A stretch of 36,105 nt of DNA from a virus. Made by a program: the position numbers and the translations under genes. The notes below the pieces were generated by a model. That model saw nothing but the letters and a program-made list of their open reading frames with translations. It searched no databases and had not been told where the DNA came from. The stretch is taken from positions 1 through 36,105 of the IMG/VR virus record IMGVR_UViG_3300046170_000251; one strand, written 5' to 3'. Below, in pieces: positions 5,424 through 8,842 of the stretch. Positions within the stretch are counted from its first letter, which is position 1. Each line of letters opens with the position of its first letter.

Positions 5424-5659
5424 TGCCTAAGAAGAAATCCTCAACATCTCTTGCTCAACAAAGTGTAGGTATAAGATTATCTTCACATGAAAAGACATGT
5501 AGTGAGAGGATGGCTCATCTTCTAAAATCAATTGAACGATTAGAAAAAAAAGTAGATACACTTTCCGATAGTGTTTCAAAAGGCAAAGGCATAGTAGCTG
5601 TCTTAGTATTCCTAGGATCTTTAGTTGCTGCTTGCATAGGTTACTTCAACATAAAATAG
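5423..5659 (+). CDS. Coiled-coil protein with C-terminal membrane segment (XhlA-like, lysis module)
   Basis: 78 residues. The first half is basic and helical (HEKTCSERMAHLLKSIERLE, then KKVDTLSDSVSKG), and residues about 57-76 form one hydrophobic segment (IVAVLVFLGSLVAACIGYF). This layout, amphipathic helix then a single C-terminal transmembrane helix, is that of XhlA/hemolysin-type accessory lysis proteins. It stands directly before the endolysin and holin genes, which supports a lysis or membrane role. It could also be an unrelated membrane-anchored protein. Confidence 0.65.
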   Translation: MPKKKSSTSLAQQSVGIRLSSHEKTCSERMAHLLKSIERLEKKVDTLSDSVSKGKGIVAVLVFLGSLVAACIGYFNIK

Positions 5660-5667
5660 GAAATCAA

Positions 5668-6069
5668 ATGACAATGATAAGAGAGCCAGGCAACTGGCAA
5701 GAGGATTGGTGTAACTTTAAACCAGATGAATTTAGGTGTAGTTGTTGCAACAGATTAGAGATTGCATCTGAGCTTGTAGATATGCTTCAGACCGCCAGAG
5801 AAGCTCTAGGAGTGCCATTGACACTTACCTCTGCTTACAGATGTCCAGATCATAATAGTAAGGTCTCCTCTACTGGTATCTCTGGACCACACACAACAGG
5901 ATATTCAGTTGATATACATGTTTCAAACTCTCAACATAGAAAACAATTAATATCTTACTTTGCAGACAAAGTTTCTGGATTAGGAATTGCTAAAACTTTT
6001 ATTCATATCGATTTATTAAATAATGATCTTGGCTTTGATGCCAGACCTAACTGTTGGTTATATTCATAA
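5668..6069 (+). CDS. Endolysin, M15-type D-Ala-D-Ala carboxypeptidase/peptidoglycan peptidase
   Basis: 133 residues from the ATG at 5668, which has AGGA seven bases upstream. An in-frame earlier start at 5632 would overlap the previous gene and add no family sequence. Zinc-site residues fit the M15 peptidase pattern: SGPHTTGYSVDIHV supplies His75 and Asp82, and FIHIDL supplies His113. LTLTSAYRCPDHN is the usual conserved strand and loop. It would cleave peptide cross-links in the host wall at the end of infection. No signal peptide is seen, so export depends on the holin encoded next. The TAA overlaps the holin ATG by one base. Confidence 0.88.
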   Translation: MTMIREPGNWQEDWCNFKPDEFRCSCCNRLEIASELVDMLQTAREALGVPLTLTSAYRCPDHNSKVSSTGISGPHTTGYSVDIHVSNSQHRKQLISYFADKVSGLGIAKTFIHIDLLNNDLGFDARPNCWLYS

Positions 6070-7114: not shown

Positions 7115-7260
7115 AATCTCCTACCTGGCACATCCTATCACTTCAAAAGTGAATCTAAATATAGTGAATTTGCTATATAATAAAATCCTAACTTATGTTA
7201 TTAGAGTAGTTGACTGATTTGTGGTTTTAAGAATTAGTGAATTTTTTTTCACTATTTATT

Positions 7261-7289
7261 TTGACAGTCATCTAGGATCGTATTAAAAC
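7261..7289 (+). promoter_or_regulatory. Sigma70-like promoter reading into the tRNA-Asn 5' half
   Basis: TTGACA (7261-7266, a perfect -35) is followed after 17 bases by TAAAAC (7284-7289; 4 of 6 matches to TATAAT). TATTAA at 7281-7286 is an alternative. Transcription would begin near 7296, about 12 bases before the tRNA 5' end at 7308. In the free phage it drives only a half tRNA. After integration it would drive the restored tRNA-Asn gene. Confidence 0.5.
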
Positions 7290-7307
7290 ACATTGTTTTT
7301 AAAACAT

Positions 7308-7345
7308 TCCTCGGTAGCTCAGTTGGTAGAGCAGTTGACTGTTAA
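7308..7345 (+). other. attP: attP core: 5' half of a tRNA-Asn gene
   Basis: The 38 bases read as tRNA positions 1-38: acceptor strand TCCTCGG (7308-7314), TA, D-arm GCTC-AGTTGGTA-GAGC (7317-7332), anticodon 5' strand GTTGA (7334-7338) and anticodon loop CTGTTAA (7339-7345), with anticodon GTT for Asn at 7341-7343. The match stops exactly after the loop; the 3' anticodon strand, T-arm and acceptor 3' strand are absent. It lies 213 bases before an integrase gene. This is the identity segment for integration into a host tRNA-Asn gene, and it is not a working tRNA. Confidence 0.85.
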
Positions 7346-7440
7346 AATGACCTCATTCCTCACAGACCAGTTGTAAAACAACTAACAACTGAAAGGTTAA
7401 GCCAATGTTATTATTTTCCAAGACAATATCGGAAGATAAT

Positions 7441-7467
7441 TTGTTCTCAGAAAACTGTCACTATAAT
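7441..7467 (+). promoter_or_regulatory. Candidate integrase promoter with perfect -10
   Basis: TATAAT at 7462-7467 is a perfect -10. Upstream is TTGTTC (7441-7446, 15-base spacing) or TTTGTT (7440-7445, 16-base spacing) as a weak -35. The -10 lies between TCACTAT (7458-7464) and ATTCACTATTT (7466-7476), so binding of integrase or another protein to these repeats would block it. The int ATG is about 92 bases downstream. Confidence 0.45.
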
Positions 7468-7558
7468 TCACTATTTCCAAATAGTGATACACTTACTGCT
7501 AGTTATATTAGAGCTAAATTATTCTTGGAAAGTTATCTCATGAAGCTATTAAATATAT

Positions 7559-8842
7559 ATGAGCAAACTATATAGAGTAACACCAAAAAATAATAAGTGG
7601 ATAATTCAAAATATAAACGACAGATCTACAGTATCTGATAAGCCATTTATTAAAAAAACAGATGCTGAAAATGCAATGTATGCAATGATAGCTTCTGAAG
7701 GAAATCAAATCACATCAACACCTACTCTTCTTACATTTAAGCAAGCATTCAAAAAATTTGCTGATTGGAAGATGAGCTTATATTCTCCAGATGGAAGAGT
7801 TAGTGAGCATTCTCTAAAAAGATATGACCAGGAGTATAGATTAAGAATATCTAAATATATGGATGACCAAGTATCTTGTAAGGATTTTGGTATCACACAT
7901 ATGGAAACCTACCTGGATAAACTAAAAGCAGCTGGAGTTAGTTTTAAAGCGATGCGTAAATCTGTAAAAGATATTAAGCATTTTTTAAGAAGAGCTAATG
8001 CTGTTGGTCAAGATCCTAATCTTTCTATGTTGACTTATAATATTTACGATCATTTGGGAGTAGTTCCTCAAGATGATGATCTTATTTATACAAGAGAAAT
8101 AGACATTAATATTTTAAGTGAAGAAAAAGTTGCTGCAATAATTAATGATTTATATGAAGGAATGAAAGTTGGAGATTTAGACAAGACTAATACATTTGCG
8201 ATTTTTTGTATGTTGTATTTCTTTGGTTTAAGAGCATCTGAATTATCTGGTATTAAAAAAGATTTTCATCCAAAACATTCATGCGTTGATATGGAAAACA
8301 ATTTTTTAAAGATCAGAGGTATTTACAAAGAAGGTAAATACATAAACAAAACTAAAAATAGAGGTAGCAAAAGAGACATTGAAATAGATGTTGATGCTAG
8401 AAAATTTTTAGATATGTGGCTGTATTATCGTATGGAACATAAACCAGATAATGTTTGGTTACTTGCTGGAAAAAATGGTGGACCAATAAGTTATACCTAC
8501 ATAAGAGATCGGATTTGGAAAACTTATGCAAAACATGGATTGGCAGAAATAGAATATAAATATGCTGGTCATGTTAGAGTTATCTCAACTCCATTAAAAG
8601 GTTTTCCAACAAAAGTATTTCGTCATAGATTTGGATCTCACATGATTACAGCTATGAATAGTAATCCTTTGTTAGATCGTAACAGAGTTAAAAACGAAAT
8701 TGGTCATACCAAGTTCTCAACATCTTCTGATATTTATGGAAATAAATTAATTAGAGGTACTGATAAAGAGAGAGCTGCTTTAGCAAAAGTAAAAGCGATT
8801 GCTAATAAATCAAATATATTTTCTAAAATAATCGAAAAATAA
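7559..8842 (+). CDS. int: Tyrosine recombinase integrase
   Basis: 427 residues. An N-terminal arm-binding-like part is followed by a SAM-like core-binding domain (about 60-150) and a catalytic domain (about 185-400). Visible catalytic residues: Arg225 in FFGLRASELSG, Arg355 in TKVFRHRFGSH, His383 in IGHTKFSTSS and nucleophile Tyr393 in SDIYGNK. The first His of the usual HxxR box is replaced by Lys352 (KVFR), a known variant. It would insert the phage at the tRNA-Asn gene whose half copy is at 7308-7345, and excise it with help from a directionality factor such as the HTH protein at 13666-13926. It faces a convergent minus-strand operon across a hairpin. Confidence 0.93.
   Translation: MSKLYRVTPKNNKWIIQNINDRSTVSDKPFIKKTDAENAMYAMIASEGNQITSTPTLLTFKQAFKKFADWKMSLYSPDGRVSEHSLKRYDQEYRLRISKYMDDQVSCKDFGITHMETYLDKLKAAGVSFKAMRKSVKDIKHFLRRANAVGQDPNLSMLTYNIYDHLGVVPQDDDLIYTREIDINILSEEKVAAIINDLYEGMKVGDLDKTNTFAIFCMLYFFGLRASELSGIKKDFHPKHSCVDMENNFLKIRGIYKEGKYINKTKNRGSKRDIEIDVDARKFLDMWLYYRMEHKPDNVWLLAGKNGGPISYTYIRDRIWKTYAKHGLAEIEYKYAGHVRVISTPLKGFPTKVFRHRFGSHMITAMNSNPLLDRNRVKNEIGHTKFSTSSDIYGNKLIRGTDKERAALAKVKAIANKSNIFSKIIEK

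Follow-up and report, generated by a model that had tools for sequence, protein, structure and literature searches.

A 5′ tRNA-Asn half and an upstream promoter-like pair at the probable attachment site of a temperate SAR11 podovirus

Known tRNA-targeting integrases and the site in the window

Tyrosine integrases of bacteria that target tRNA genes typically use a core from the 3′ half of the gene, as the first-pass annotation had also stated; the alternative is a complete tRNA carried by the phage (PMC10865867). In the tRNA-dependent lysogeny of mycobacteriophages, the phage makes up for the broken tRNA with a complete tRNA that has a promoter of its own (PMC10865867). The archaeal pTN3-like integrases have the 5′ half of a tRNA gene as their attB, the rebuilt tRNA lies behind element DNA, and its expression is said to come from the integrase promoter (PMC8371274). 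The 5′-half situation was described in the same paper as seldom in bacteria.

The window analysed here is the whole stretch of 36,105 nucleotides from IMG/VR virus record IMGVR_UViG_3300046170_000251 (positions 1 to 36,105). The following features were recognised around its attachment site.

7161–7171, plus strand: putative integrase arm-type site ATAGTGAATTT in the P arm (repeat families D2 and I7; binding putative)
7235–7257, no strand assigned: putative inverted pair of arm-type sites, TAGTGAA...TTCACTATTT, in the P arm (repeats D2, D3 and I6; conserved in relatives)
7261–7266, plus strand: TTGACA, −35 hexamer of the predicted phage promoter (TTKACA conserved in relatives)
7284–7289, plus strand: TAAAAC, predicted −10 hexamer after a 17-nt spacer, with a predicted start at about 7296
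7308–7345, plus strand: attP core, tRNA-Asn positions 1–38 (5′ half through the anticodon loop)
7467–7487, no strand assigned: putative inverted pair of arm-type sites, TTCACTATTT...AAATAGTGA, in the P′ arm (repeats D3 and I7; conserved in close relatives)
7559–8842, plus strand: tyrosine integrase (Pfam PF00589, E 7e-9; PHROG integrase)

The core, TCCTCGGTAGCTCAGTTGGTAGAGCAGTTGACTGTTAA, has no second copy in the virus record. It matched positions 1–38 of SAR11 tRNA-Asn(GTT) at 38/38 bases (blastn E 1.5e-16), and the identity stopped after the anticodon loop (32–38), with position 38 the last shared base. The extent proposed for the core from the sequence alone was thus exact, and the SAR11 gene identical over these 38 bases was found. 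Identity to attB lay in the 5′ half and not in the 3′ half. Two SAR11 genomes gave 37 distinct tRNA sequences, of which tRNA-Asn alone had an exact run of at least 22 nt in common with the window; with the E value above, this led us to reject a chance tRNA resemblance. A tRNA gene search found no complete tRNA gene in the window, and a complete phage tRNA, as in tRNA-dependent lysogeny, was likewise rejected.

The same 38 bases were present, without change, in integrase-bearing relatives (viral and genome contigs), including every attP contig of the family, wherever the contigs extended that far. Beyond the core, the sequence followed the tRNA for just 0–5 more bases in 20 family members, and the 24 bases directly 3′ of it had a mean pairwise identity of 31%. 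If a working tRNA has to be rebuilt from the 5′ half, one would expect an unchanged 5′ half beside a drifting 3′ side.

The core ends 213 nt before the integrase start, so that the integrase lies wholly outside it. The closest named phage found was Pelagibacter phage HTVC028P (MW273921), which has the same 38-nt core, the pair TTTACA-17-TAAAAC and the same order of features. Its integrase belongs to the same family (61% identity), and DNA identity over the region was about 72%. No att site is annotated in the HTVC028P record, and an earlier published description of its att site is possible.

The locus resembles typical bacterial systems in having a tyrosine integrase beside attP, a core within the 30–45 bp range identical to a tRNA gene, and a tRNA rebuilt at the junction. 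It differs from the typical 3′-half type in the origin of the two halves: the 5′ half comes from the phage and the 3′ half from the host, which leaves the rebuilt tRNA without its native upstream DNA. The 5′-half core and the position of the rebuilt tRNA behind element DNA, seen at two attR loci of relatives (L033 and L066), are as in pTN3, and the geometry would fit expression of the rebuilt tRNA from the integrase promoter. However, the archaeal integrase gene is split by integration, whereas that of the window family stays whole and belongs to a bacterial podovirus. The system works like pTN3 with an unsplit integrase in a bacterial podovirus, and its kind is already known from archaea. As in the mycobacteriophages, the phage would supply the expression of an essential tRNA function after integrating into a tRNA gene, but the window phage has no complete tRNA.

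Two further details of the arms were recorded. Positions 7197–7216 are an 85% direct copy of core bases 7322–7341 (D-arm and anticodon stem), 125 nt upstream of them; similar partial core copies occur in relatives at −105 to −118 or +193 to +203 relative to the core. At 7405–7575 lies a small ORF, judged by eye to encode about 56 aa; it begins 59 nt downstream of the core and overlaps the start of the integrase gene. ORFs of 48–55 aa occupy the equivalent place in several relatives, and the ORF of the window is perhaps a candidate excisionase or leader peptide.

Integration junctions in SAR11 genomes

Prophage junctions at tRNA-Asn, which the first-pass annotation had proposed looking for, were found in two SAR11 genomes. 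The single-cell genome AG-905-E11 (G001) contained both attL and attR. Contig 12 (attL) reads tRNA-Cys, 48 nt of native spacer, tRNA-Asn 1–38 and phage integrase, which is uninterrupted. Contig 21 (attR) reads phage arm, promoter-like pair and complete tRNA-Asn, the last being called by ARAGORN. A second genome (G074) again had both junctions; its integrase belongs to the same family but is divergent. Compared with the empty site of genome G158, the attL flank was identical at 391/412 positions and the attR flank at 300/350, ungapped. One attL locus (L022) was identical to an attP contig (L025) over 1500/1500 bases 3′ of the core and unrelated to it 5′ of the core, where it carried native-type DNA (42/45 to a native locus). 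These junctions belong to relatives (G001 and G074) and not to the window phage itself. In those relatives, it is borne out that integration parts the host tRNA-Asn from its native upstream DNA and that phage DNA comes to precede the rebuilt gene. A chance or ancient tRNA fragment with no role in integration is very improbable, since both junctions lie at exactly this core in two genomes; nothing was found in its favour beyond the fact that those junctions are known from relatives of the window phage.

A recombinase, a tRNA-identical core near it and, in relatives, integration junctions were all found, as expected of a temperate phage with a tRNA-targeting tyrosine integrase. We consider it likely that this locus serves a temperate SAR11 podovirus as attP, that the phage integrase recombines with the tRNA-Asn gene of the host, and that the phage gives the 5′ half and an upstream promoter.

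Nearly all core-bearing genomes among the 297 SAR11-family genomes sampled had one copy of the tRNA-Asn core; two copies were present in G001, G003, G074 and G297. As tRNA-Asn is apparently single-copy, the rebuilt gene has to be functional. At 26 inspected SAR11 loci, tRNA-Asn lay 43–51 nt downstream of tRNA-Cys. Other native loci had no tRNA-Cys nearby, yet shared a TTGTT...TATGTT-like stretch directly upstream of tRNA-Asn, which we infer to be the native tRNA-Asn promoter.

Strand exchange would most likely take place within the anticodon loop, as the end of the shared sequence at position 38 in the window would allow. The phage would contribute tRNA positions 1–38 and the promoter upstream of them. 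At attR, the phage arm and core would be joined to the host 3′ half, giving the complete tRNA-Asn behind phage DNA that is seen in relatives. At attL, the native upstream DNA and 5′ half of the host would lead into the integrase gene, again as seen in relatives, and the native promoter stretch would be left there, before the integrase. The TTKACA-17-TAAR pair would then transcribe the rebuilt, apparently single-copy tRNA, and in the free phage the same promoter would read through the half tRNA into the integrase gene. By this geometry, integration would be a reciprocal promoter swap.

SAR11 bacteria rank among the sea's most abundant cells. The relatives, for which both junctions and an empty site are known, offer a clear bacterial case in which a phage takes control, from upstream, of an essential tRNA gene that is apparently single-copy, the situation described as seldom in bacteria (PMC8371274).

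The promoter-like pair upstream of the core

The pair at 7261–7289 fits the sigma-70 consensus at 6/6 positions in TTGACA and 4/6 in TAAAAC. A strict promoter scan missed it, as its second hexamer lacks the final T. Such sites were not above chance in the window (7 found against 13 expected), and since the region is AT-rich and the second hexamer imperfect, the window by itself would not prove a promoter. A chance promoter in AT-rich DNA, open on the window alone, is made unlikely by conservation in relatives. The hexamers and 17-base spacing first proposed were confirmed. The distance of about 12 bases to the tRNA, also proposed, fits the predicted start and not the −10 hexamer, which ends 18 nt before the tRNA.

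A pair at 17-nt spacing near the tRNA was present in 8/8 non-redundant family attP arms, while 400 shuffles gave 0.19 on average and never more than 2. It was also present in 5/7 attR or scar loci (the latter described below), the two others (L066 and L045) having TTGCTT in place of TTKACA. The pair was absent from all 22 (17 + 5) non-redundant native loci. In a spacing test anchored on the first hexamer alone, ten sequences with spacers less than 60% identical had TAAA or TAAG exactly 17 nt after TTKACA in 10/10 cases, as against at most 3/10 at any other spacing tested; the ten are related by descent, and 10/10 is not to be read as a formal probability. The conserved pair is very probably a sigma-70-type promoter, to judge from these comparisons.

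The −35 region (7258–7273) also resembles the anticodon-loop part of the core (7333–7348), of which it is an imperfect inverted copy (88%), and it might be an integrase site overlapping the promoter. The attP could then be real and the TTKACA stretch an inverted core-type binding site for integrase or excisionase, with the tRNA expressed by read-through from other phage promoters. The inverted copy, together with ACAGT following TTK in many relatives, speaks for such a site. However, the core-like extension is missing from the distant members L010, L116, L124 and L036, which keep TTGACA, and the distance to TAAA or TAAG is always exactly 17 nt although the spacer diverges and the distance to the tRNA varies by a few nt. 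We find this explanation improbable and prefer a promoter, although part of the conservation of the −35 hexamer could come from protein binding, since the two overlap.

The scan reported no plus-strand sigma-70-like site between the core and the integrase, for which reason the same promoter probably serves the integrase in the free phage. The pair would thus probably be the promoter of the integrase too, and be exchanged in a swap, not carried as a purpose-made spare.

Long-spacer loci and other elements at tRNA genes

Six genomes (G052, G102, G110, G118, G214 and G273) had a gap of 123–199 nt between tRNA-Cys and an intact tRNA-Asn, against the usual 43–51 nt. No match to an integrase of the window's family was found in them at E 1e-5; as these are draft assemblies, the absence is not absolute. 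A phage-arm profile matched three of the long spacers (L169, E 2.7e-9; L045, E 9.5e-9; L167, E 1.2e-5) and no native locus; the best of 20 shuffles per sequence reached E 1.6. The other three (L036, L047 and L048) did not match the profile, and carry TTGACA-17-TAAATA. By eye, L036 has a stretch in common with the attR of G074. The simplest reading of these sequences is that the long-spacer loci are scars, from which the prophage was deleted while part of the phage arm and the promoter were left.

The long spacers might instead be native, with a TTGACA promoter of their own, and the segment might have been captured by the phage. The three loci lacking a profile match would agree with this, and native-like selection for a promoter would yield the same pair. 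Yet native spacers were 43–51 nt in 26 loci, and L169, L045 and L167 match the profile across the putative arm repeats, whereas native loci do not. As the matched part spans putative integrase arm repeats, deletion is a likelier origin than phage capture of host DNA, and we judge native long spacers unlikely, if somewhat less so than a binding site in place of the promoter.

Read as scars, these loci suggest that a phage promoter can persist after the prophage is lost. We regard as plausible, but evenly balanced, the wider proposal that integration swaps promoters reciprocally, with tRNA-Asn coming under the integrase promoter and the integrase under that of the host tRNA, and that the prophage was later lost in several SAR11 lineages with the promoter kept, permanently rewiring an essential gene. 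In the scars, tRNA-Cys is still 123–199 nt upstream, and read-through from it into tRNA-Asn is possible. The scar loci make it testable whether phage promoters become host promoters.

A second set of viral contigs (L118, L119, L120, L122, L127, L129, L131, L135, L137, L138, L143 and L144) carries 42–45 nt of the same tRNA-Asn 5′ half. They encode a tyrosine integrase 5′ of the core, on the opposite strand, and a hairpin directly precedes the core. The one integrase compared with that of the window, from L143, had no BLASTP similarity to it. We set this set (L118, L143 and others) aside as support for the promoter-like pair, as 1/4 of its non-redundant members fits and the integrase orientation differs.

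Genome G297 (L067 on contig 4 and L068 on contig 24) has a different element at the same tRNA-Asn site, where, by eye, a gene resembling a DNA cytosine methyltransferase adjoins the complete tRNA-Asn; it was not used as support. In genome G003 there is a phage contig in attP form, as well as a complete tRNA-Asn preceded by a TTTACAG stretch (L029/L072; L034/L071). This tRNA-Asn (L029/L072) was left unclassified, since the stretch read contained no tRNA-Cys and the phage-arm profile did not match.

Two pelagiphages carry tRNA genes of other isotypes and not the tRNA-Asn half: HTVC019P has a complete tRNA-Cys (L195, 8946–9019), and HTVC011P has, by eye, a tRNA-Leu-like sequence right after the integrase (L196, near 5590–5680). 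Both are possible cases of tRNA-dependent lysogeny.
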